DNA from: a virus
Reading direction: 5' to 3' (one strand)
Length of the DNA stretch: 23,773 nt
IMG/VR virus record: IMGVR_UViG_3300033144_005720
Span: 1 to 23,773 of that record
The notes beneath the pieces were generated by a model. That model was given only the letters and a program-made list of their open reading frames with translations, did no database searches and was not told the origin of the DNA. This document shows positions 3,300 to 23,773 of the stretch, one piece after another. The translations under genes and the position numbers were made by a program. The number at the start of each line of letters is the position of its first letter. The stretch's first letter is position 1.

Positions 3300-3881
3300 T
3301 TAAGCAACTTTATACTTAATGCGTTTCTTTATAACCTTTAAAACACTTTTCCAATTACCATTATAAATACTAATAGCTTTATCATCAATATAAAAATCTG
3401 CTGCAAGTTTCTCAGCAGTAATCCGATCAAAATAAATACCTTTATCTTTTAACCACTTACCAACGTTCTTTATTTGATCTTTATGATCACCTCCAAGTTC
3501 ATCAGCATTTTGTTTTGATGCTCTTGTAGTAAATATAACTATTTCATAACCATTTCGTTTTAACCAATCAATGACTTCTTTTGCACCATCAAATGCATTG
3601 TCATAAATTGCACCATCTTTATATCCTTTGGAATATCTATGAATTGTTCCATCAAGATCAATCATTGCTCTTTTTGGAATTTGTTCATCTTTACCCTCAG
3701 GATAAAGGGTTCTTATAATTTGTCTTTTCTTCTTTTTTTGACTTTTGGGAAACGAGTCGATTGCAAACGTACCAACAGACTCATTATCTTCAACTTCCTC
3801 TAAAATTTTATCTATATAGTTCATTATATTACCAGAGGCCAATTTTATATTTTGTTCTAAACTCGCTAAGACATTGTTCAT
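3300..3881 (-). CDS. HAD-superfamily phosphatase
   Basis: This is a 193-residue HAD hydrolase, expected to remove phosphate through an aspartyl intermediate with Mg2+. Motif I is MIDLDGT (D75, D77), motif II is IFTTRA (T118 or T119), the motif III lysine is probably K158 (AEKLAADFYIDDKA), and motif IV is D166/D167. The cap is very short, as in 5'-nucleotidase or polynucleotide 3'-phosphatase-like members. The substrate cannot be told from sequence. About 70 residues of charged, low-complexity sequence precede motif I. The start is uncertain. The ATG at 3881 has no ribosome binding site and lies 3 nt from a TATAAT-like box. An ATG at 3824 (residue 20) lies 19 nt after a shared promoter-like element, and I consider it an equal candidate. 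A phosphatase among tail genes is unlikely to be structural; phage nucleotide or RNA-end metabolism is possible. Confidence 0.75.
   Translation of the reverse strand: MNNVLASLEQNIKLASGNIMNYIDKILEEVEDNESVGTFAIDSFPKSQKKKKRQIIRTLYPEGKDEQIPKRAMIDLDGTIHRYSKGYKDGAIYDNAFDGAKEVIDWLKRNGYEIVIFTTRASKQNADELGGDHKDQIKNVGKWLKDKGIYFDRITAEKLAADFYIDDKAISIYNGNWKSVLKVIKKRIKYKVA
3844..3858 (-). promoter_or_regulatory. Promoter-like element AGAACAAAATATAAA, copy 1
   Basis: On the minus strand this reads AGAACAAAATATAAA, identical over 15 bases to 10128-10142 and one base off 12700-12714. It lies within the first codons of the HAD gene as annotated from 3881, or 19 nt upstream of the alternative HAD start at 3824. 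The TATAAA end could serve as a -10 box. Chance is possible in AT-rich DNA, but the other copies all precede minus-strand genes. Confidence 0.4.
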
Positions 3882-3896
3882 GAATTATACCATTAT

Positions 3897-3927
3897 CTAT
3901 ATATATTAATAAATGAAGAATAAACTT
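3897..3927 (+). promoter_or_regulatory. Shared plus-strand promoter element ahead of accessory cassette
   Basis: This begins CTATATATATTAATAAATGA and continues AGAATAAACTT. The same string, with one substitution and two single-base gaps, lies at 11213-11245 ahead of the prepilin gene. It ends 23 nt before the first cassette ATG and just upstream of a strong AAAGGAGG ribosome binding site. Conservation between two non-homologous genes argues for a promoter or operator. The polymerase or sigma factor that reads it is unknown. Confidence 0.6.
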
Positions 3928-3950
3928 TTTGTGAAAGGAGGATTTGTATA

Positions 3951-4343
3951 ATGTCAAAAAATAGCGGTGGAGGAATAGGGATAGGAACTATTATTATTGT
4001 ATGTGTTATCGGGTATAATCTATTTTTTAGTGACGATGATAAAGATACAGATGTAAAAGAAATTGATGTTGAAGTCCAAGACCAATACATTTCAGATGAA
4101 ACGAAAGAGGAAGTTAAAGAGACCGTGCGTGAAGCTATCACCTCAGCTAAAAAAGCTATAAAAGAAATGAAAGAGAAAGTTAAAAAAGAACTAAATAAAA
4201 AGGAAGAAGGTGAGAAAATTGACGAGACACAAGATAAGCAATCGCCAAAAAAAGAAGTTGTTAAAAGGCGAGAAGAAAAAATGGAAACTCTCAGACCTCT
4301 GGAAGAAGATAAACCAGAAGAAAAGGAGTTCAAACGATTATGA
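3951..4343 (+). CDS. Membrane-anchored, highly charged coiled-coil protein
   Basis: This 130-residue protein opens the plus-strand cassette. Residues ~7-25 form one transmembrane helix (GGGIGIGTIIIVCVIGYNLF), followed by an acidic linker (DDDKDTDVKEIDVEVQD). A long Lys/Glu-rich helix then runs from about 45 to 110, probably a coiled coil, with a charged, disordered end. The orientation is probably N-out with the charged domain in the cytoplasm, or the reverse; sequence alone does not settle it. The AAAGGAGG leader is strong. Its stop overlaps the start of the radical SAM gene (ATGA at 4340-4343), so the two are translationally coupled and probably made together. A scaffold or membrane tether for the next gene product is an inference. 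No family recognised. Confidence 0.75.
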   Translation: MSKNSGGGIGIGTIIIVCVIGYNLFFSDDDKDTDVKEIDVEVQDQYISDETKEEVKETVREAITSAKKAIKEMKEKVKKELNKKEEGEKIDETQDKQSPKKEVVKRREEKMETLRPLEEDKPEEKEFKRL

Positions 4344-5350
4344 TAAAACCGAAATTCAATAAGTTTTTTGGTAACTCTGACTACGAACTATTTTTTGACA
4401 CAACAAATGGTATTGAAGTAATGCGAGGAACTAAGGGGAAAGAAGATCCATTCTCTTTATATCTTCCTTCGTTGATAGATGTCGGAGTTATGGGACATTG
4501 TAAACATAAATGCGAATTCTGTTATCAAGGACATTCAAACAAACCCAATATGAAGATCGAAGATTTTAAATCAATTATAGACCAAGTTAAACATCACACC
4601 AATCAGGTGGCGTTGGGCGGTAGGGGTGATCCGAATCAACATGAGAACTTTGAAGAAATAATCTCATATGCTCGTAAGAATGGAGTTGTCCCAAACTACA
4701 CAACAAGCGGTATTGATTTAACAGACAAACAAATCGAAATATCAAAAATGTGTGGTGCAGTTGCAGTTAGTGATTATGGAAAATCTTATACATATAAAGC
4801 TCTAAGAGATCTAATGGATGCCGGAGTAAAAACTAACATTCATTTAATGTTTACTGACACCTCGTATTTTAAATCACTTATAATTCTATATGGACATAAT
4901 CCTTGGAAACCCAGAGATAATGAAAGTCTTGTAGACATTGACAGATTAAATGCTGTAATATTTTTATTATTTAAACCAGCTGGTGCAGGAGCTAATCTTA
5001 AGTGGAGACCCAGTATGTATCAATTTTCAACTTTTGCAGAACTTGTATTCAAAACAAAATCTAAGTTTAAAATTGGAATGGATAGTTGTTTGGTCAATCA
5101 TGTCTTAAGTTATGTTGAACCAGATAAACTTCAAAAGATGTCAATTGATACATGTGAAGGTGCAAGAATGTCAGCATACATCACTCCCGATATGAAAATG
5201 ATGCCTTGTAGCTTTGCAGAGTCGAGTATATGGGCCGTTCCAATAAAAGGTGATAAAGACATTGACTATATCTGGAATCGTTCAATGAACTTCAAATCAT
5301 TTAGAAAAATATTAAAGAGTAATCAAAAATCTTGTCCATTGGAACTATGA
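4340..5350 (+). CDS. Radical SAM enzyme with SPASM-like C-terminal cysteines
   Basis: This is a 336-residue radical SAM protein. The cluster motif is CKHKCEFC (C54, C58, C61; CX3CX2C) in GVMGHCKHKCEFCYQGHS, which would ligate a 4Fe-4S cluster that cleaves S-adenosylmethionine. A TIM-barrel-like series follows: ALGGRGDPNQHENF (~91-104, GGE-type position), NYTTSGI and TNIHLMF. Four further cysteines (C250, C272, C290, C332) lie in the C-terminal third. C272 and C290 frame CEGARMSAYITPDMKMMPC, the usual look of a SPASM/twitch auxiliary-cluster domain. Such enzymes commonly modify peptides or proteins. The chain ends four residues after C332, so the last cysteine-rich segment is short for a SPASM domain. 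It is coupled to the upstream membrane-anchor gene and followed after 12 nt by the four-TM gene. The fold is certain to me; the substrate is unknown. Confidence 0.88.
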   Translation: MIKPKFNKFFGNSDYELFFDTTNGIEVMRGTKGKEDPFSLYLPSLIDVGVMGHCKHKCEFCYQGHSNKPNMKIEDFKSIIDQVKHHTNQVALGGRGDPNQHENFEEIISYARKNGVVPNYTTSGIDLTDKQIEISKMCGAVAVSDYGKSYTYKALRDLMDAGVKTNIHLMFTDTSYFKSLIILYGHNPWKPRDNESLVDIDRLNAVIFLLFKPAGAGANLKWRPSMYQFSTFAELVFKTKSKFKIGMDSCLVNHVLSYVEPDKLQKMSIDTCEGARMSAYITPDMKMMPCSFAESSIWAVPIKGDKDIDYIWNRSMNFKSFRKILKSNQKSCPLEL

Positions 5351-5362
5351 AAGGAGACAATA

Positions 5363-5737
5363 ATGCAACATCAAAATACTATAAAAGAAGAAATAAAACA
5401 ATATAACCTACAAAATTATATTGAAATTTTTATCTTTAATGTGATGATTGTCCTTGCAATAATTGGATATAGGGGAGAAGTATGGGCTGCAATAATTTAC
5501 ATGTGTGCAGTACTTATGTTTATGCTTACTTTCATATTCACTATATTAATAATGAAGTGGAAAGTTGATCCATCAGCTATTTATTTCTCTATATACTTTC
5601 TACATCTTCTATTATGTGTAGCATTTGGATGGTGGGGGTTGACTGCATGTTGGTTTATCATACTAGTTTACGCAGGGATAGGAATGGATCGTTGTCTAAA
5701 AAGTATGGAGGCAAAAAAAGATGAAAATAAAAACTGA
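5363..5737 (+). CDS. Four-helix integral membrane protein
   Basis: This 124-residue protein has four predicted transmembrane helices: about residues 20-36 (IEIFIFNVMIVLAIIGY), 42-65 (AIIYMCAVLMFMLTFIFTIL), 73-92 (IYFSIYFLHLLLCVAFGWWG) and 93-108 (TACWFIILVYAGIGMD). It has an amphipathic N-terminus and a short Lys-rich cytoplasmic tail (KSMEAKKDENKN). AAAGGAGACAATA lies just ahead of the ATG. It overlaps the next gene by 17 nt. I do not recognise a family. It does not look like a classical holin in length or charge pattern, and it sits away from the lysis-type genes. In context it may be a membrane partner of the radical SAM enzyme or of its modified product; this is inference. Confidence 0.75.
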   Translation: MQHQNTIKEEIKQYNLQNYIEIFIFNVMIVLAIIGYRGEVWAAIIYMCAVLMFMLTFIFTILIMKWKVDPSAIYFSIYFLHLLLCVAFGWWGLTACWFIILVYAGIGMDRCLKSMEAKKDENKN

Positions 5738-6227
5738 CTTTGTAACCAATTCTAGTTCTTCATCATTCATTGTAATTTGGCCTTGTAAGATTACCAAAAC
5801 TGAAGATCTACAACCATACATATCCAGACCTGATTTTGCTAGAATTATTTTTAACGATGCAATGAATCAAAGACCCAAAAAAGTTAGTCTAAGATGTATA
5901 CCTAAAATGGTCGAAGAAATTACAAGCGGTTATATTGATGATATTCAAAGTCTTTGGGATTATGAAAAAGAATTCTGTATAAGAGAAGGGATATCAAAAG
6001 ATGACCTTTGGCGTAATCGAGCATGGCAGGAATTATGCCAAGAAGAAGGAGAAATTAACCAAAATAAACAGGCAAGAGAAAAAGTTAAGAAGTTTATCGA
6101 ACCATATAAGGATAAAGGATATGTCTACTATTTTAGCTACGCTGATGAAGATGGTGGAATCTTTTCTGAACTCGAACACAAAAATGACTGGGGCGAACTC
6201 CCGTATATCAGAATTAGCCACCACTAA
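5721..6227 (+). CDS. Protein with N-terminal FVTNSSSSSFIV motif
   Basis: This 168-residue protein starts MKIKTDFVTNSSSSSFIV, a short Lys-rich opening followed by an Asn, five serines and Phe. I remember this N-terminal signature on otherwise dissimilar phage and bacterial hypothetical proteins, but I know of no established function. The middle is a charged helical region with three scattered cysteines (C22, C57, C77 region). The C-terminus has a second conserved-looking block: YFSYADEDGG, then LEHKNDWGELPYIRISHH. The start at 5721 overlaps the four-TM gene by 17 nt and has GGAGG 9 nt upstream. The gene ends 10 nt before the next start. Being in the operon of a SPASM-like radical SAM enzyme makes it a candidate substrate. 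That link is inferred and untested. Confidence 0.75.
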   Translation: MKIKTDFVTNSSSSSFIVIWPCKITKTEDLQPYISRPDFARIIFNDAMNQRPKKVSLRCIPKMVEEITSGYIDDIQSLWDYEKEFCIREGISKDDLWRNRAWQELCQEEGEINQNKQAREKVKKFIEPYKDKGYVYYFSYADEDGGIFSELEHKNDWGELPYIRISHH

Positions 6228-6237
6228 AGAGGATAAT

Positions 6238-6768
6238 ATGAATATGAATATTGATGATCCTCAGGATCATAGAGAATTAAATACACATATTAAAAATTAT
6301 GTTATGGCAGAGTTCGTTGCCGTCCCACCCGACTTTGATTTCAAAAGTCATTTGACTATGAGAGAACAAGTTGGAATGTTTAAAATTAAAGATGTTAATT
6401 TAACCCAAGTTAAAATTATATCAGATGCAGTTGCAAGTTCTCCTGTTTTCAGCACTTTAAATAATGCAACATTAAATCCCACATCATGCTTCTTTTTCCT
6501 ACAGTTAATGGGAGAACTAAATCTAGTCCTCAAAAAAATTGATAATCCATTAAGAAGAGGTCAGGAACAATATAAAGAATTTGCAAAAAGATGGGAAAGA
6601 GATCAAGGTGCATATGTTCGGGGGCAAGATGTTGAAAGGATAAGTTTCCTTATTATCAACATTGTTCCTTTGCTGGATCAAACTATTATTGATGAAGCAT
6701 GGGAGTCATTAAATGAATTGAAAAAATATCAAGATGAAATTAATAACATGAAATGTAAATTTGATTAG
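6238..6768 (+). CDS. Helical cytoplasmic protein of unknown function
   Basis: This 176-residue protein starts at ATG 6238 with AAAGAGGATAAT just upstream. The open frame continues further upstream to 6001, but that part lies within the previous gene in another frame. The protein appears mostly alpha-helical: a polar N-terminus (MNMNIDDPQDHRELNTHIKN), a hydrophobic central helix (TSCFFFLQLMGELNLVLKKI) and a C-terminal pair of helices with Glu/Lys heptads (EAWESLNELKKYQDEINNMK). There is no signal peptide or recognisable catalytic motif. Its fifth place in the cassette, between the NSSSSSF protein and the CreA-like protein, suggests a shared transcript. An adaptor or regulatory role is possible but nothing in the sequence proves it. 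Confidence 0.7.
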   Translation: MNMNIDDPQDHRELNTHIKNYVMAEFVAVPPDFDFKSHLTMREQVGMFKIKDVNLTQVKIISDAVASSPVFSTLNNATLNPTSCFFFLQLMGELNLVLKKIDNPLRRGQEQYKEFAKRWERDQGAYVRGQDVERISFLIINIVPLLDQTIIDEAWESLNELKKYQDEINNMKCKFD

Positions 6769-6781
6769 GAGGAAAAGTATT

Positions 6782-7285
6782 ATGTCCAAAAGATGGATGA
6801 CCAATTGTATTATATTTTTACTTATAGTTCTGCTATTCACTATAGTGGTAGCAGTTTCATACGCAGGAACACCTGTCGTTCAAATAGGTGAAGTTGTTTG
6901 CATCAAAAGACTTTTTCAGGGTAATGATAAAATTAAAATTATTCGAGTTCAAGATCCTGAAAATCCTTTTGTATCAATCTTCTTTACAACAGTTAAGACT
7001 GGAAAAATAATTGCGTGGGCCGATCCAAGCAACACATCAATCGCTGCCAGATTAACCGGCAAAATTCCTATTGATGGAAATGGAAAACGTATTATCAATA
7101 AAACTACTAACAAAGATATTGCTCATATACGAAAATCTATTGGATCAAAGGTAATGAAAATTGCTAGATTTTATGACAAGAAAATGGACACTCTAACGTA
7201 CTTGGTATATACTACAAAGTTGTTGGATGGTTCATTAAAACATTCGTTGTCAGTTGTTCCATTGGGAAAACCATTATCTCCATAA
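6782..7285 (+). CDS. creA: CreA-like exported protein
   Basis: This 167-residue protein resembles the bacterial CreA family, small periplasmic proteins of unknown biochemical role. It starts at ATG 6782 with AGGAGGAAAAGTATT ahead. Residues 1-29 form a signal peptide (basic RWMTN, hydrophobic core, likely cleavage after VSYA). The mature part follows CreA block by block: QIGEVVCIKRLFQGNDKIKI, a QDPENPFVSIFF segment matching the family's DDP-V, a TGKIIAWADPSNTSIAA block matching the GGI-GLAEDTSDAAIS block of E. coli CreA, and the end VMKIARFYDKKMDTLTYLVY and LKHSLSVVPL. It has lost the second cysteine of E. coli CreA (C in the CQQ block is A here), so the usual disulphide is probably absent. 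It is the last gene of the cassette and is followed by a bidirectional terminator. It was probably acquired from a proteobacterial host and diverged. Confidence 0.7.
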   Translation: MSKRWMTNCIIFLLIVLLFTIVVAVSYAGTPVVQIGEVVCIKRLFQGNDKIKIIRVQDPENPFVSIFFTTVKTGKIIAWADPSNTSIAARLTGKIPIDGNGKRIINKTTNKDIAHIRKSIGSKVMKIARFYDKKMDTLTYLVYTTKLLDGSLKHSLSVVPLGKPLSP

Positions 7286-7291
7286 CGACGG

Positions 7292-7334
7292 AAAATGAGT
7301 CACTCAGGATTTACTCTTGAGAGACTCATTTTTT
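7292..7334. terminator. Bidirectional intrinsic terminator
   Basis: The inverted repeat TGAGTCACTCA (7296-7306) and TGAGAGACTCA (7318-7328) has one mismatch and an 11-nt loop. It is flanked by AAAA on the left and a run of T on the right, so it can terminate in both directions. It sits between the convergent ends of the CreA-like gene (plus) and the sheath gene (minus) and insulates the cassette from the tail operon. Confidence 0.85.
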
Positions 7335-7342
7335 TGGTCAAA

Positions 7343-9295
7343 TTAAACAATAAAGAAGTTCAGTTCAATCTGTTCTACAGTTCTTGTAGGTTCTAATGTT
7401 ACGTTGACGTGGAATTTCTTTGTACGTCTTTCATAATCTGTTGCACCTACATCTACTGAGAAGTTTGTCAAACCACGTTTCTTTCTAATCACTTCAAGGA
7501 AGTCAACTAGATTACCTGCTACAAGAGACCATGTGATTTCATCGTTTTGTTCAAAGATGAAGAAACGACAGAAATCTTCAAACGCTCTCTTGATGTACAG
7601 AACAAGTCTGACAATATTCAAGTCTTGTAAAGCACTTGCTTTTGCTTGAGATGTTAACTGCCCCCAAACAACATACCCAGGATTGAATTTAACAATTGGA
7701 TTTAGTTGCTTCAGATATAGTTGATCTCTTTGTCCAAGTCTTGGATTATAACGAAGTTCTTTAATTGTGTCAATTGCTGCTCTATTGAAACCAGCTGCTG
7801 CGAACCAAAGTTCAGCCACAGTATCATTTCTTGGTAGGATATATGACATATGATAAACTGGTGAGAACCACACATCTTGTCCTGTAAATGGGTCAAATAC
7901 TTTATTGTATGATTCATATAGAGCCACAAAGTAATTATTAAATGTATTGGTATTATTTCTTGTAGCAAGGGCAAGATTAACACTTGCATTATCCCCATTA
8001 TCAAGAATACCAACACAGTCACGTCTTGTTTGACATAATGTACTGATTGCAGATTTAACATCGGCTGGGTAACCACAATCCCATACCATTGAGAAGTAAG
8101 TGTTTTCAGTATCAAGTACGTTATCATCAATGATACCATTATATGCTTGATTTAGAAGTTGTACAGCTTCAGCAGTTTCTAAAGAACCATCATCTTGTAA
8201 TAGATCGCCATCACTTCCTTTTCTTAATGGCACAGGGTCAGCTGATGTAAATGCTTGAGCAACTGAACCATATGATTTCTTAATGCGATATTCAATATCA
8301 GATGCATCATCAAAATCTACTACAGATCCATTCCATGATTGTGTTGCTAATGATATTTCAGAATAGACTGTAATTTCTTCATCATCCGCTCCAGCAGTAG
8401 CTCCACACCAACCCCAGATTTCAGTTCCTCTGGCATCTTTAGCAATAATAACATAATCACCTGTACCAGTTCCTTCCCAATCAGAGAAGTCTTGTTTGAT
8501 ATCTGTGAGATCAGCAGAACCAGCAGTTAAGGTAACTCTTATATTAGTATCAATATCTTTATCATAAGTTCTGATATTTTCATCATATCCAGCTGAGAGA
8601 CGATCTGTATCCTTATCAAAATACATTTCTGCTTTAAGGATTGCTGAATATGTATTTAAAACATCCAAAATCCAGATTGAATCGCCCGCACTATCTTTTG
8701 CTGTTTTCTCAAATGAAACTTCAAACGATTCAATTATAGCATCTTGCCCATCAGATTGTCTTTCATAGACATCTAAAATGTATTGATCCCAAACAGTTGG
8801 GTTAGATACTTCCGTTAATCTTACACCTATTTTGTTATACCATTGTCCTCTTCCAATTGGATATAAGAAGCAAATTGGGTATGCATTACCGTCTTGTGCT
8901 AAATTAGTCTCAAGCTCATCAACTGTGTTCATACCTTCTACAAATGTAATTTGCATACCAGCAGTTGAGTCAGCGGGATTAACTGTTGCATCAATCCTTA
9001 TATTTGAGTATGTAGCATTATCAGAAAGAACTCTCATGTAAAAAAGAGCTCCTGATTCTCCTAAATAATTATACGCACAATATGGACCTTGTCCATAGTT
9101 TTTGCCGTATGTCGCAATATTTGGTTCTCCATATTCTGAAATATAGTCGGCTCTTGAACCAATAAATTTTAAAACGTTATCTTCACCCTTTTCATTAAGT
9201 GCTGCAATAAAACCAATTGTTGAAGGTACAGCTTGTACGAATTGAGAAAGGTCGATAATTTTTGAAAAAACTCCTGGCGAGACATTTGCTGCCAT
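7343..9295 (-). CDS. Tail sheath protein
   Basis: This 650-residue contractile tail sheath subunit forms the outer tail tube that shortens on infection. The N-terminus has the sheath signature VSPGVFSKIIDLSQF with STIGFIAALNEKGEDN, used for subunit linking. The C-terminal third carries the conserved core: DVKSAISTLCQTRRDCVGIL, RLGQRDQLYLKQLNPIVKF, YVVWGQLTSQAKASALQDLN, VRLVLYIKRAFEDFCRFF and the final FHVNVTLEPTRTVEQIELNF. The middle (residues ~170-360) is a variable insertion domain, probably on the sheath surface. AGGAGGAAAAAAAC precedes ATG 9295. In T4-like order the tube should follow. Here the plus-strand accessory cassette and the HAD gene lie between sheath and tube, so the cassette looks inserted into a tail operon. 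Confidence 0.92.
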   Translation of the reverse strand: MAANVSPGVFSKIIDLSQFVQAVPSTIGFIAALNEKGEDNVLKFIGSRADYISEYGEPNIATYGKNYGQGPYCAYNYLGESGALFYMRVLSDNATYSNIRIDATVNPADSTAGMQITFVEGMNTVDELETNLAQDGNAYPICFLYPIGRGQWYNKIGVRLTEVSNPTVWDQYILDVYERQSDGQDAIIESFEVSFEKTAKDSAGDSIWILDVLNTYSAILKAEMYFDKDTDRLSAGYDENIRTYDKDIDTNIRVTLTAGSADLTDIKQDFSDWEGTGTGDYVIIAKDARGTEIWGWCGATAGADDEEITVYSEISLATQSWNGSVVDFDDASDIEYRIKKSYGSVAQAFTSADPVPLRKGSDGDLLQDDGSLETAEAVQLLNQAYNGIIDDNVLDTENTYFSMVWDCGYPADVKSAISTLCQTRRDCVGILDNGDNASVNLALATRNNTNTFNNYFVALYESYNKVFDPFTGQDVWFSPVYHMSYILPRNDTVAELWFAAAGFNRAAIDTIKELRYNPRLGQRDQLYLKQLNPIVKFNPGYVVWGQLTSQAKASALQDLNIVRLVLYIKRAFEDFCRFFIFEQNDEITWSLVAGNLVDFLEVIRKKRGLTNFSVDVGATDYERRTKKFHVNVTLEPTRTVEQIELNFFIV

Positions 9296-11275: not shown

Positions 11276-11641
11276 ATGAATCCCAATAATCAAAAGGGTT
11301 TCACTCTAGTTGAAATTCTTGCAGTCCTAGTTATTTTAGGAGTGATTGTGGGAATGGCAACTGTCAAGTTTATATCTATTGATAAAAATGCGGAGATGCA
11401 AGGGATCAAAATGGCAATTGTTGATCTTAATGGTCAAGAGATGGAAACTTGGACTGAGGGAAAATTCAGTGGAGGATGGACCGATGCAGAAATATTTAAT
11501 CGAGTTGATCATCAGATCAAAAGTTATAAATGGATTAGTTTAAATCCTTCTGGCGGAGAATTAAAGTTCGGAGAAACAACTGAACAACTCACTAGAGCAT
11601 TATCAACTTCACAAGAGCCTGCTCGATGGAGTTTAAACTAA
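11276..11641 (+). CDS. Type IV prepilin-like / pseudopilin protein
   Basis: This 121-residue protein has a canonical class III (prepilin) signal, NPNNQKGFTLVEILAVLVIL. A short basic leader ends in G8, where prepilin peptidase would cut before F9. Glu is at position +5 of the mature protein, and a ~20-residue hydrophobic helix anchors the subunit in the inner membrane or the pilus core. The mature 113-residue part has a small, Cys-free globular domain (ending SLNPSGGELKFGETTEQL and RALSTSQEPARWSLN). That is shorter than most major pilins and closer to minor pilins or pseudopilins. The AAAGGAGG leader is strong. It is the only gene in its plus-strand unit and ends in a structured terminator. 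It needs host prepilin peptidase. A role in altering host pili, and so blocking competing phages, is a reasonable inference. Confidence 0.85.
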   Translation: MNPNNQKGFTLVEILAVLVILGVIVGMATVKFISIDKNAEMQGIKMAIVDLNGQEMETWTEGKFSGGWTDAEIFNRVDHQIKSYKWISLNPSGGELKFGETTEQLTRALSTSQEPARWSLN

Positions 11642-21247: not shown

Positions 21248-23773
21248 TTATGATACTCTCCAAATAGTTAATCTTGCTCTTCTGATGTTTACTCCTGTAG
21301 TTCCCACATCCCAATAATCAAGATCTATGTCTACATCACCACTTAAAGTTGCTTCATAAAAACCTGACATTGGATACCAATAACTATCGTCCCACTTGCT
21401 TGTAGAGTTGCCTCCCATTTCAGCAATATCTGTTGCATCATCAATTTGTACTCGAGCATTAAATATACAATCTTTATCATTATCTTTAGAAAATTCAAAC
21501 CCCCACTCAATATGATAATCACCACTTGGCAAACTCGTTTTTGATAGACTAACTTTTTCTTGTGGAACATCACTGTTCGTAGAACTTTCTCCATCAGAAG
21601 AAGCATATCCATATTCACTTCCAAATACAGATAAACCAGAAGTAGAATCAATCGTAACTTCAGATGTAGAATCAGCAGTAATGTTAAGATTACCTGTAAA
21701 GTTTAATGTCTCAAATGGACTTCCAGAAACAATTACTCCATCTTCTTTAATATTAATTGTAGAACCTGAACCTGCTGGTCCTTGTGCCCCATCAGCTCCT
21801 TTAACTCCATCTAATTTAAGAACTTTGAATGTACCATTAACACCAGTATCTCCAGTAAAACTTTCATACTTTAATTGTACTGTAATGTAATCTCCGCTAG
21901 TTAATGTTGCAATAAAGCTATTATTTAAATGGTTATAAATATATGGACTGCCATCAATTGAATCATCGTAAATTGCTGTTACTTTTGAATGTGAACCATT
22001 AAGTGCTGTAGCACCATTTTTCTCTACTTGTGCATTAGCATGACAAGGTTCCCATTGTGTGAGTGATGCAGCATCAATATTAAAATCATAACTGACAAGA
22101 TAAGTCCCATCTTCTTTTATATTGATTCTTTCTGTGTTTGAATTATCATGTTCAACTATATCATCATCAGATTCTTCATCTGTTTGATTAAAAGTAATAT
22201 CTACATATGCAACAGTTAAAGTATAAGCTGTTGATCTTCTTGCCTGAACTACTGCCATCTTTTCTGAAAATATATTTTCAATGGTTACCTGACTTGTAGA
22301 ATCAGCAGTAACCCTCATATTTTCAAAATTTAATACTTCAAATGGATTTCCTGCAACAAATGATCCATCCTCTTTAACATTTATTGTAGATCCTGATCCA
22401 GGTGGTCCTTGAATCCCACTGGTTCCTGATGTACCAGCAGATCCTATATCACCTTTTATACCACTAACTTTCATTATAGCATAAGTACTTTCTGGTATTA
22501 ATATATTTGCTCCACCATCTGAAATTGCTTGAAATGTAAAATAATCTCCGGCGGTCATGTCATAGAAGAAAACATTTCCAGCATCATTTGTCTCGTCATC
22601 TTCACTAATTATTCTTTCACTTCCAGGAATAACAGTTATTCCATTTAATAAAGCACGAAAGTCGAATTGATTCTCATCTGCGTCAGCATCTATTGAAGCA
22701 GCATAAGTTATCATATATAAACCGTCTTCTTTAATATTAATTCTTTCAGTATTTGTACTATCATGAGAAATAATATCTGGTTCACTTTCAACATCAGTTA
22801 TGTCAAAAACTATATCTGTAAAAGATGTTGTTAATGTATAATCAGTTGACCTTCTAACTTGAACAACTGCTAAATCTCCTTCTAATGGTGAGGTTCCTGA
22901 TGAACCTGATGTTCCAGCTTCCCCACTTGAACCGCTTGTACCTGTAGCACCTGTAGCACCAGATGATCCTGATGTACCACTTGAACCTGAAGTTCCGCTA
23001 TCTCCTGAACTACCTGAAGTTCCTGCTATACCACTTGAACCACTTGTACCTGTAGCACCAGATGATCCTGATGTACCACTTGAACCAGAAGTTCCAGCTA
23101 CCCCACTTGAACCTGAAGTTCCACTTGACCCACTACTTCCAGGAGCGGTTGCTAAAGGAGTGGTGATTCTTGAATAGTACTCCGTTCCCTCATAATATAA
23201 ACAAACTTGTCTATCTGAAGCAGCTGTAGTTAATGCATAATATCTAATTTCTAATCTTGAATCAGGATCAACTAAAAAATCGCCTTGTGTAGTTTCGGTT
23301 GTATATAGAGTAGGTGTTCCGACATTTATTTCAGGAGTTAATGTTTGAAATAAGAGGTTTGATGTAGTATCTGTAAACTCATATACCTTAATTAAAACTT
23401 TAGTAACACCAGATGGATTATTAACAGTTAGATATGTTTTAAATGACCATACTCCAGCATCCCAATTTCCAAGATTTGGAACTCCAGTATCAGTAACATA
23501 CTGATCAATTAATATCTCTCCATCACTAAGTTTTAAGTTCACACAATCCATATCTTGTGGATCATTATTTGGAATTGGTCTAAGTCGTTCATAACCAGTA
23601 CTATCAGATACTTCATTATGTAACCAGTATGTTGCTCCACCAATTGCCCCAGCTTCTCCAGATGTACCTGAACTACCAGATGAACCAGAAGTTCCGCTTA
23701 TCCCCGATGATCCTGAACTACCAGATTCACCACTAGAACCTGAAGTTCCTGCTATACCACTTGAACCAGAAGT
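21248..23773 (-). CDS. Tail fibre with collagen-like repeats, 5' end outside window
   Basis: At least 841 residues are in view; the frame is open at the right edge, so an ATG at 23551 is internal and not the start. The order is a collagen-like run (residues 1-44), a ~165-residue beta domain (~45-211, including YWLHNEVSDSTGYERLRPIP and LTVNNPSGVTKVLIKVYEFT), a second collagen-like run (212-294), then two related C1q-like sandwiches. The sandwiches begin VVQVRRSTDYTLTTSFTDIV and VVQARRSTAYTLTVAYVDIT. Each is followed by a short collagen linker and a STIN-KEDG-x-F-E-LNF module. A last beta domain (FGSEYGYASSDGESS to RARLTIWRVS) closes the chain. This is a modular fibre, probably trimeric through the Gly-x-x repeats, with the C-terminal domains as likely receptor binders. 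Confidence 0.85.
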   Translation of the reverse strand, partial: TSGSSGIAGTSGSSGESGSSGSSGISGTSGSSGSSGTSGEAGAIGGATYWLHNEVSDSTGYERLRPIPNNDPQDMDCVNLKLSDGEILIDQYVTDTGVPNLGNWDAGVWSFKTYLTVNNPSGVTKVLIKVYEFTDTTSNLLFQTLTPEINVGTPTLYTTETTQGDFLVDPDSRLEIRYYALTTAASDRQVCLYYEGTEYYSRITTPLATAPGSSGSSGTSGSSGVAGTSGSSGTSGSSGATGTSGSSGIAGTSGSSGDSGTSGSSGTSGSSGATGATGTSGSSGEAGTSGSSGTSPLEGDLAVVQVRRSTDYTLTTSFTDIVFDITDVESEPDIISHDSTNTERINIKEDGLYMITYAASIDADADENQFDFRALLNGITVIPGSERIISEDDETNDAGNVFFYDMTAGDYFTFQAISDGGANILIPESTYAIMKVSGIKGDIGSAGTSGTSGIQGPPGSGSTINVKEDGSFVAGNPFEVLNFENMRVTADSTSQVTIENIFSEKMAVVQARRSTAYTLTVAYVDITFNQTDEESDDDIVEHDNSNTERINIKEDGTYLVSYDFNIDAASLTQWEPCHANAQVEKNGATALNGSHSKVTAIYDDSIDGSPYIYNHLNNSFIATLTSGDYITVQLKYESFTGDTGVNGTFKVLKLDGVKGADGAQGPAGSGSTINIKEDGVIVSGSPFETLNFTGNLNITADSTSEVTIDSTSGLSVFGSEYGYASSDGESSTNSDVPQEKVSLSKTSLPSGDYHIEWGFEFSKDNDKDCIFNARVQIDDATDIAEMGGNSTSKWDDSYWYPMSGFYEATLSGDVDIDLDYWDVGTTGVNIRRARLTIWRVS
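22892..23140 (-). repeat. Collagen-like Gly-x-x tandem repeat, block 2
   Basis: About 27 Gly-x-x triplets, mostly GSSGTSGSSG with A, V, I, D and E variants, are encoded by near-repeated 18- to 27-nt units. The DNA repeats could shorten or lengthen the fibre by recombination. Confidence 0.85.
23642..23773 (-). repeat. Collagen-like Gly-x-x tandem repeat, block 1 (continues past window)
   Basis: About 14 Gly-x-x triplets of the same GSSGTSG type reach the window edge. The DNA at 23741-23773 nearly matches units in block 2, so assembly at this end could be affected by the repeats. Confidence 0.8.

Follow-up and report, generated by a model that had tools for sequence, protein, structure and literature searches.

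The radical-SAM maturases known so far have mainly short precursor peptides as substrates, and many RiPP enzymes use an RRE domain. A full SPASM domain has seven auxiliary cysteines, and the mycofactocin maturase modifies MftA at its C-terminus. In phage T4 a single short N-terminal sequence, the capsid-targeting sequence of the internal proteins, is carried by unrelated phage proteins, and we know of no radical enzyme that goes with it. In the VMAP-ternary conflict systems a predicted peptide-modifying radical-SAM/SPASM gene is found with an AP-ATPase effector, a peptide with a C-terminal FxSxx motif and a peptide-processing protease, according to the part of the source considered here (Kaur et al., 2020; PMC7159879).

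The DNA analysed here (the window) is a stretch of 23,773 nucleotides from a virus. It contains a block of six plus-strand genes, A to F (Table 1), whose core is gene B, encoding a radical-SAM enzyme, and gene D, encoding a protein that opens with a fixed, serine-rich sequence of 18 residues, here called the tag. The pair resembles SuiB, SkfB and PqqE in fold (Z 25.2, 23.7, and 20.3, respectively), in having the partner encoded next door, and in the leader-like conserved N-terminus of that partner. However, the proteins with the tag are about 50-670 aa long and have unrelated bodies, which are full proteins, and up to nine tag matches occur with one enzyme per contig. In B no RRE is evident, B-type enzymes have four invariant auxiliary cysteines, the NCBIfam maturase models stay far below cut-off, and the neighbour clusters of the bacterial and archaeal tag loci include neither a protease nor an exporter that recurs regularly. 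As in the VMAP-ternary systems, a predicted peptide-modifying radical-SAM/SPASM gene can lie inside a putative conflict system with an ATPase, but here the N-terminal NSSSxSF tag is on whole proteins, the ATPases are Avs2-like STAND proteins, and phages have the pair too (compared with the same part of PMC7159879).

B and D match phrog_7293 (2e-26) and phrog_7397 (1e-9), which PHROG lists, unlinked, as of unknown function. In open-licence literature the string NSSSSSF had no match, the strings VTNSSS, VSNSSS and TNSSST had unrelated matches only, and among the papers listed on radical SAM/SPASM, phage, Avs/STAND or RiPP none was seen to describe this tag. In the parts of two further sources considered here, the word 'radical' is absent from the main text of the Avs5-JADA paper (PMC12931631), and the other paper concerns DndC (PMC10853773).

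Table 1. Features of the six-gene block, in window coordinates
Feature	Position	Strand	Basis or remark
Gene A: N-terminal membrane anchor and charged coiled coil (by eye)	3951..4343	+	frequent neighbour, outside the wider pair
Gene B: radical-SAM enzyme, SPASM/twitch-like C-terminal domain, 336 aa	4340..5350	+	PF04055, phrog_7293, SuiB/SkfB fold
Cluster motif CKHKCEFC (C54, C58, C61 of B)	4499..4522	+	sequence
Gene C: small protein with several TM segments (by eye)	5363..5737	+	rare in relatives
Gene D: tag-bearing protein, 168 aa	5721..6227	+	phrog_7397 1e-9; 40-row family A3
N-terminal tag of D, MKIKTDFVTNSSSSSFIV	5721..5774	+	325 distinct tag matches elsewhere (among matches listed)
Gene E: family unassigned, often 3' of D	6238..6768	+	no Pfam/PHROG/NCBIfam match at E 0.1
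Gene F: CreA family, signal-like N-terminus	6782..7285	+	PF05981 6e-26
Bidirectional terminator-like hairpin, F/sheath intergenic	7291..7334	.	MFE -25 and -20.6 kcal/mol; z -6.4 both strands

The enzyme and the tag

The initial annotation had called B a radical-SAM enzyme, and this holds: B passes PF04055 (34.8 bits, cut-off 29.5) and has the CX3CX2C motif, of which C54 and C61 are invariant in 95 relatives while the spacing of the motif varies. The auxiliary cysteines, C250, C272, C290, and C332, do not vary across 95 enzymes. With these four cysteines and a PF13186 score of 17.2 bits against 21.5, the C-terminal domain would fit a twitch-like domain with a single auxiliary cluster better than a full SPASM domain. 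One bacterial relative (locus L371) passes TIGR04085 (32.4 against 27). None of the curated NCBIfam radical-SAM maturase models was passed; the best score of B was 41.8 where 381 is required (PqqE), and the best of four bacterial enzymes was 69.6 where 265 is required (again L371). The AlphaFold2 model of B (pLDDT 96.6) is matched by SuiB, SkfB and PqqE as above, by anSME (Z 19.5), and by viperin folds (about 18.6). The predicted fold is thus that of the peptide- and protein-modifying SPASM enzymes. About 40 residues, with three short strands among them, precede the barrel in the model, and an RRE is not evident there.

The tag follows roughly the pattern M-K-[IV]-[RK]-x-[GD]-F-[VI]-[ST]-N-S-S-S-x-S-F-[IV]-[IV]. 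Mean column conservation in D is 0.89 for the tag against 0.42 for residues 19-160. At least 434 distinct tag proteins were collected, and the tag opens proteins of at least 115 sequence clusters, 72 of the 115 being singletons, with no sequence shared between clusters beyond the tag. Among 116 tag proteins scanned, drawn from 130 chosen representatives, at most two match Pfam at E 0.001 and 49 match phrog_7397. Counting from the Asn, serine is found at +1 and +2 in all 325 tag matches among those listed, and at +3 in 311, the other 14 having threonine; the unconstrained +4 position has serine in 242 and threonine in 58 of the same 325. The conserved serines are encoded by both serine codon sets. 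These comparisons of sequences show selection of the tag at the level of amino acids. Position is equally strict: in 60 of 60 tags, from loci chosen by a pattern that did not include the ATG, the start codon lies exactly nine residues ahead of the Asn, which shows that the tag is fixed to the N-terminus. A chance motif was considered and rejected, since a scrambled version of the pattern, its composition kept, occurs at 0 places in the viral collection against at least 80 loci for the tag pattern.

In the model of D (pLDDT 91.8), the serine run enters a strand at residues 13-20 and disorder appears limited to about residues 1-10. Part of the tag may therefore belong to the folded structure. 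Neither PDB nor BFVD gave a match to the model at E 0.001. The tag was found in no solved structure, two designed helical proteins (E 0.2-0.6) aligning outside it, and a simple search of ORF sets gave no natural fusion of tag and enzyme.

Pairing in phages, bacteria and archaea

Among contigs of at least 50 kb, a B-type enzyme is present in 30 of 40 selected by the tag and in 0 of 18 random ones (P 3e-8). Among those of at least 100 kb, the figures are 19 of 21 and 0 of 7 (P 3e-5). The 40 are every contig of that size among the 80 loci listed, the smallest being 53 kb. Some of them nearly duplicate others, with identical enzymes in two pairs, which makes the P values optimistic; the random contigs are smaller on average, and the tag was checked in seven of the 18, those of at least 100 kb. 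An unselected sample is also available in the form of 299 genomes of one family, which we take to be Lachnospiraceae from the name of the centre genome, Lacrimispora. Here the strict tag occurs in four genomes, the enzyme in six and both in four (P 5e-8), or three, five and three when the centre genome is left out (P 2e-6). In whole bacterial genomes the 30-base search pattern is loose: 54 of the 299 match and 61 places were translated, leaving the strict tag in the four genomes; two look-alikes (G259 and G269), with frames lacking the M-K start, were left out of the count. The fifth genome with an enzyme (G298) has three tag genes adjoining it, with Y replacing the first F, and in another enzyme-bearing genome (G218) no tag was found in 9 kb.

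The pairing has exceptions on both sides. Ten of the 40 tag contigs show no enzyme. In the lineage of the window, the enzyme is found at 35 of 37 loci and a nearby tag at 16, or 17 if an NSSSSDF variant (L542) is counted. Three enzyme-bearing contigs, of 57.7 kb (L518), 25.4 kb (L502), and 22.8 kb (L527), have no strict tag, these contigs being fragments, and LR756500 (462 kb), which encodes a distant enzyme, shows no tag. Some viruses with the enzyme may truly be tagless. Counts of D against the enzyme in INPHARED records come from one phage group and give weak support for pairing.

In bacteria and archaea, 76 of the 80 tag loci or genomes listed have the enzyme and four show none. An enzyme ORF lies within 8 kb of the tag at 66 of the 80 loci (62 at E <1e-20 and four as short pieces at locus ends), and in 10 of the remaining 14 it is elsewhere in the genome, twice as fragments. 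At the 61 loci with both, the gap between tag and enzyme has a median of 4 nt, 53 are within 50 nt, and all 61 pairs are on the same strand. That the tag is found with, and often adjoins, one radical-SAM clade is shown by these genomic counts.

Some bacterial pairs lie inside Avs-like STAND operons, in the order STAND gene, small protein, tag protein, enzyme, with examples in Sporomusa KB1 and Chryseobacterium ZHDP1. The likeness is to Avs2 (AVAST): beside one bacterial tag family, 22 loci have a large STAND protein, and all 18 of those scanned match PADLOC Avs2, while their N-terminal effectors vary (PNP phosphorylase, HamA-like, REase). Unlike Avs2, whose models have 1375-1576 aa, the longer STAND proteins of the tag loci have about 930-1050, and the STAND gene is followed by the three other genes; a defence role is putative. 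The Avs-type assignment concerns the bacterial relatives and does not apply to the window.

The tag also comes in dialects, DxxT and GxxS among them. In 29 of 29 contigs with at least two tags among the matches listed, all tags of a contig are of one dialect, against a mean of 14.9 and a maximum of 20 in shuffles; at least three of the 29 look like near copies (G038, G051, and G042). On a tree of 130 enzymes, from a quick LG+G4 search that included near copies and dropped loci with mixed or no dialect, dialect changes three times, against a mean of 37.6 and a minimum of 29 in 300 shuffles. On the evidence of these counts and this tree, the listed tags of a contig are shown to share a dialect that follows the enzyme clade.

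A possible modification of whole proteins

The initial annotation had guessed at protein modification, and the tie between a radical-SAM gene and NSSSSSF-type proteins in phages, bacteria and archaea lends this guess support. From the selection on the tag, the co-occurrence, the dialects and the predicted fold, we predict that B probably modifies the tag-bearing proteins, with a probability of about 0.8. B would be a protein-modifying radical-SAM enzyme that recognises its substrates by the N-terminal tag, namely D and, in relatives, many tagged proteins with otherwise unrelated bodies. It would bind the tag directly, no RRE being evident in its short N-terminal part. It would cleave SAM and abstract hydrogen from its tagged substrate, with N-S-S-S-x-S the most likely site, and the product might be a cross-link, a dehydrogenation, an oxidation or an epimerisation. 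Since the pair is not regularly flanked by a protease or an exporter, the tag would be retained, and the modified proteins would act inside the infected cell in the case of phages or in STAND-type operons in bacteria. The recurrence of the enzyme-tag pair, and of its tag on a wide range of unrelated proteins, makes this look like an undescribed chemical modification of whole proteins.

Alternatively, the tag may be a leader only, where the enzyme docks before modifying a distant site such as the C-terminal residues. The C-termini of several clusters are unusually fixed, the last residue being His in all of 54 proteins, Gly (GAGR[ND]G type) in all of 11, and either Tyr or Trp in 73 of 97, while most proteins of three small clusters end in HMG. 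The modified site may thus be outside the tag. A Sulfurimonas enzyme also aligns along its length with the mycofactocin maturase model, at 69.6 bits with a cut-off of 265. However, multi-member clusters such as 3, 4, 7, 8, and 12 have no common ending, which rejects the C-terminus as a universal site (the 72 singletons cannot be judged), and conservation of the tag serines seems higher than docking alone would demand. We consider docking without modification of the tag unlikely, while giving it real weight. Much less probable is action on a small molecule, as by viperin, with the tagged proteins as regulators or receptors. The PADLOC pVip model is weakly matched (1e-13 for the enzyme of locus L399, 1e-7 for B) and viperin folds reach Z of about 18.6, but the best folds are peptide- and protein-modifying enzymes (Z 19-25), up to nine tag matches accompany one enzyme in a contig, and the four auxiliary cysteines invariant in 95 enzymes are absent from viperin. 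More remote still is a capsid-targeting or co-injection signal in the style of the T4 internal proteins, with the enzyme merely a frequent neighbour: the design is the same, one short N-terminal sequence common to unrelated small phage proteins, but the pair is also found in bacterial records, some of them STAND operons, and the dialects follow the enzyme.

If B does modify the tagged proteins, one enzyme clade appears to serve many kinds of whole protein through one portable tag, and the pairing spans bacterial STAND operons and lytic phages, RB43 and RB16 among them. A broader picture, which we put forward tentatively and at rather less than even odds, is a general protein-tagging system. 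One radical-SAM clade across large phages, bacteria and archaea would read the portable tag and place a radical modification in its N-S-S-S-x-S core on dozens of full-size proteins that are unrelated to one another. Enzyme and tags would co-evolve, as dialects. In phages the pair would arm arrays of small host-acting proteins, bacteria would use the pair in Avs-like STAND operons, and, the two sides using the same pair, each may read or counter the tagged proteins of the other. The pairing offers a first functional handle on phrog_7293, phrog_7397, and hundreds of small proteins, and a portable tag would be useful in protein chemistry. From an RB43-type tag protein, trypsin should yield one peptide, SGFVSNSSSSSFIVR, containing the entire serine run.

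Neighbouring genes and the site in the tail operon

The six ORFs of the initial annotation, their overlaps (ATGA at 4340; 17 nt at 5721), and the CreA-like identity of F all stand. So does the position of the block, between minus-strand HAD/tube-like genes and the sheath gene (PF17482 28.8 bits, cut-off 26.9; phrog_19666 7e-74), the tube gene being a weak match (phrog_45 9e-5). Gene content was compared in two sets of relatives, 37 loci selected by the sheath, with sheath and tube visible, and 24 selected by the radical-SAM gene. B is kept in 35 of the 37. A is found in 22 of 37 and 13 of 24, E in 20 and 19, F in 21 and 9, and C in 7 and 1, although divergent membrane proteins may escape detection. 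The two loci without B (L491 and L494) also lack the tag and have sheath, HAD, and tube intact. They are empty sites, at which the tail genes are kept, as expected of a moron; the picture of a unit that can be lost, that has no recognised virion component and that occupies a constant position in the tail operon is supported. The description as an inserted six-gene cassette holds in part only: B is nearly constant, and the membership of the others varies strongly between relatives. Judged from the genomes compared, A, C, E, and F are neighbours specific to this lineage; beyond it, what stays constant is the enzyme with the tag. The proposal that the six genes make up a single membrane-spanning cargo system, the tag being incidental, is largely refuted: A, E, and F do turn up at this position in many relatives, but each is absent from 15 to 17 of the 37 and C from 30, and enzyme and tag persist in other settings beyond this lineage. 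No support was found for the exclusion system that the initial annotation also suggested, or for a single pathway spanning cytoplasm, membrane and periplasm.

INPHARED has no near DNA relatives of the window, and an Rfam scan gave no match at gathering scores. Of the ribosome binding sites proposed for the block, a GGAGG-type site is seen upstream of 3951. The promoter-like element proposed at 3897-3927 has no sigma-70 consensus site; a scan of 3300-7700 finds 21 such sites against 20.6 +/- 4.7 in shuffles, which is chance level, phage-specific promoters lying outside the reach of the scan. At the proposed terminator, the hairpin between F and the sheath gene is well above chance on both strands, with 0 of 200 shuffles as good.

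The tag and its carriers

The product of gene D, one of six plus-strand ORFs of the window (A to F), begins with MKIKTDFVTNSSSSSFIV and carries there the tag, an 18-residue serine-rich sequence with an NSSSxSF core. In 40 relatives of D, mean conservation is 0.89 at residues 1-18, as opposed to 0.42 at residues 19-160. The tag recurs on other proteins. At locus L022, one radical-SAM gene is flanked by three proteins whose bodies differ and which all start with the tag sequence. Vibrio phage D479 carries five tag genes at roughly 2-11 kb from the radical-SAM gene; in Citrobacter phage Miller and in RB43 there are two, at a distance of about 19-24 kb. When viral contigs were scanned for the tag with a 48-base pattern, at least 80 loci were found; a scrambled pattern of the same composition matched none.

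The tag is fixed at the N-terminus: in 60/60 distinct tags, all from loci picked without an ATG-bearing pattern, the start codon lies exactly nine residues upstream of the tag's Asn. Among 325 pattern matches from viruses and genomes, Ser follows the Asn at +1 and +2 in every case and at +3 in 311, although the pattern permitted other residues at these positions. The +4 codon, left free in the pattern, encodes Ser in 242 and Thr in 58, and the Ser codons are drawn from both serine codon sets. It is therefore the protein sequence that is conserved. Clustering by body divides the 434 complete tag proteins into 115 groups, of which 72 have a single member, and 116 representatives have nothing in common in alignment except the tag; at most two of these match Pfam. 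C-termini are conserved in some clusters, and recurrent endings are seen in several (GAGR[ND]G, GGY/GGW, CxHMG, SxH).

Pairing of the tag with a radical-SAM enzyme

The tag goes with one clade of radical-SAM enzymes, that of gene B. Among the matches listed, an enzyme of this clade is present in 29/38 plus 1/2 contigs selected by the tag (E 4e-58 or lower) and in 0/18 random contigs of at least 50 kb, two of which have distant radical-SAM genes only (E 7e-9 and 5e-6). A contig can hold up to nine tag matches, and in 26 records the nearest tag lies a median of 1.4 kb from the enzyme. The pairing extends to 80 bacterial and archaeal loci found by the tag alone, among the matches listed: in 66 of them an enzyme ORF lies within 8 kb (E below 1e-20 in 62; the other four are short pieces at locus ends). 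Ten of the other 14 have the enzyme elsewhere in the genome, two as fragments only. Where tag and enzyme are both seen (61 loci), they are a median of 4 nt apart, always on the same strand. Among 299 genomes of one family, which we take to be Lachnospiraceae, drawn irrespective of tag or enzyme apart from the centre genome, four have a strict (full-pattern) tag, each together with the enzyme; the enzyme occurs in a further two without a strict tag, one of them with a Y-variant adjoining it. The phage records matching the Miller enzyme (174) and its D relative (175) belong to nearly the same genera, which is weak support since they come largely from one phage group.

The window's own lineage counts against the pairing: 19/35 enzyme loci lack a strict tag nearby, one of them having an NSSSSDF variant. 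Two larger contigs of this lineage have tags at 6 and 52 kb (G403) and at 25, 67, and 72 kb (G404), some at the block position and some far from it, so fragments can miss tags; the remaining loci may represent true tag loss. Two bacterial tag genes, at loci L348 and L377, have an in-frame stop. No enzyme of the B clade was found in the L348 genome, as if tag and enzyme were decaying together there, but the L377 locus retains one. On a Lokiarchaeota MAG contig (L379), possibly a binned virus contig, the enzyme is 53% identical to that of the window and the tag protein resembles one from L022.

Tag dialects, enzyme fold and proposed mechanism

Most tags belong to the types DxxT (226) and GxxS (181), beside 15 DxxS and 4 GxxT. 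The S/T position agrees in 29/29 contigs that have at least two listed tags (maximum 20 in 10,000 shuffles), and the dialect agrees within 90/92 loci. A 130-enzyme tree accounts for the S/T state with 3 changes, as against at least 29 in 300 shuffles. Within a genome, unrelated bodies have one dialect, which switches with the enzyme clade; these sequence patterns point to the enzyme as what probably reads the tag. Shared ancestry of the tags would not by itself account for the dialects unless tags are copied between bodies, and such copying would in turn suggest that a protein needs the tag of its own genome.

For an AlphaFold2 model of B, made from an alignment of 95 relatives (pLDDT 96.6), solved structures rank by Z as follows: SuiB 25.2, SkfB 23.7, PqqE 20.3, and anSME 19.5, with viperins near 18.6. 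Foldseek likewise ranks SuiB, SkfB, and PqqE at the top, and a profile search of solved chains places SkfB and SuiB first. C54, C61, C250, C272, C290, and C332 are invariant in 95/95 enzymes, a pattern that fits one predicted SAM-binding cluster and one auxiliary cluster. In the columns of window residues 54-61, the SAM-cluster spacing is CX3CX2C in 52/95, CX6-17CX2C in 15/95, and CX7CX6C in 28/95. No curated maturase model reached cut-off, and the general SPASM-domain model did so in one bacterial enzyme. An enzyme ORF on a 548-kb contig (locus L190) has one in-frame TAG, perhaps read as an amino acid by a phage.

We propose that B would most likely bind the tag of D, cleave SAM, and alter the tag or the protein bearing it; the tag would stay on D, and the modified protein would work inside the infected cell. 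The serines may be the modified site, or the change may occur elsewhere, for instance at the C-termini that some clusters conserve. In the D model, residues 1 to about 10 are disordered and a strand spans 13-20, which would place the Asn and first serines at the junction of flexible tail and fold. By analogy, the predicted pair would work like a RiPP maturase and its leader, except that the putative substrates are whole proteins. In VMAP conflict systems, radical-SAM/SPASM modification of FxSxx peptides has been predicted (Kaur et al., 2020; PMC7159879). This is the nearest printed idea found; the motif, its position, and the partners differ from those of the tag pair. No description of the N-terminal tag was found among the literature matches listed. 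The enzyme-tag pair is best read as a putative new form of radical-SAM leader-guided modification, possibly a general protein-tagging system.

Genomic contexts

In bacteria and archaea, one tag family of about 138 residues is encoded in an operon where a large STAND protein is followed by a small one (N1), the tag protein, and the enzyme. By record name, its hosts are Clostridia, Alphaproteobacteria, Bacteroidota, Sulfurimonas, an Omnitrophota MAG, and Methanoculleus, the last with an NSSTTSF variant. The STAND protein was found in 22 loci and matches PADLOC Avs2 in 18/18 scanned; its N-terminal effectors vary (PNP phosphorylase in Chryseobacterium, HamA-like in two, REase-like in one). Upstream of it in six loci is a metallo-beta-lactamase-fold ORF; the single copy scanned is related to defence-associated ones. 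Lachnospiraceae offer another context, a tag-enzyme-HTH set, and rumen Clostridia have tag proteins bearing LRR or BRCT. The 15 largest neighbour clusters, annotated in part, include no regular protease or exporter partner; an ABC-ATPase-like ORF occurs in 4/80 listed tag loci.

None of 50,697 phage records is a near match to the window itself, a 23,773-base IMG/VR virus fragment. Its minus strand encodes T4-like tail parts: sheath, a tube-like protein, and a T4-type baseplate protein. The initial annotation described six tightly packed plus-strand ORFs, some overlapping, as a cargo cassette between sheath and tube genes. The ORFs and their overlaps are as described, and the terminator-like hairpin 3' of gene F is strong on both strands; a consensus scan lent no support to the suggested promoter-like element, giving no more sites than shuffles. 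In 24 IMG/VR loci selected by B (including five apparent near-duplicate pairs and several incomplete loci), the block lies between tube/HAD genes and sheath wherever the flanks are visible, with B in 24, the tag in 20, E in 19, A in 13, F in 9, and C in 1. Among 80 sheath-selected loci, 37 show both sheath and tube; there B is found in 35, the tag in 16, A in 22, E in 20, F in 21, and C in 7. The two without B and tag, L491 and L494, retain sheath, HAD, and tube, with about 1.1 kb and a small membrane-protein-like ORF between sheath and tube; a search of the entire contigs, 43 and 45 kb long, found no tag either. The block is thus a removable unit of varying content, not a fixed set of six genes. 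The initial annotation rightly picked out the block but drew its boundary wrongly, the actual finding being the enzyme-tag pair.

Coordinates of genes in the window and of features in related loci
Feature	Record	Position	Strand	Remark
A	window	3951-4343	+	neighbour
B	window	4340-5350	+	radical-SAM enzyme
C	window	5363-5737	+	neighbour
D	window	5721-6227	+	tag-bearing protein
E	window	6238-6768	+	neighbour
F	window	6782-7285	+	CreA-family
Type IV pilin-like protein	window	11276-11641	+	prepilin N-terminus; TIGR02532, 30.8 bits (cut-off 16.3)
Fibre-like protein	window	21248-23551	-	767 aa; collagen-like GTSGSSG repeats
Extra Cys-containing ORF	L002	8178-8951
Extra Cys-containing ORF	L013	6227-7072
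Enzyme ORF with in-frame TAG	G044:C1	87440-88459
Tag gene with in-frame stop	L348	7637 onward
Tag gene with in-frame stop	L377	522 onward

The extra Cys-containing ORF, judged by eye to be possibly a homing endonuclease, is confined to some of the relatives, where it separates the tube gene from the HAD gene. The pilin-like gene sits within the minus-strand tail operon, and the relative L006 also has one.
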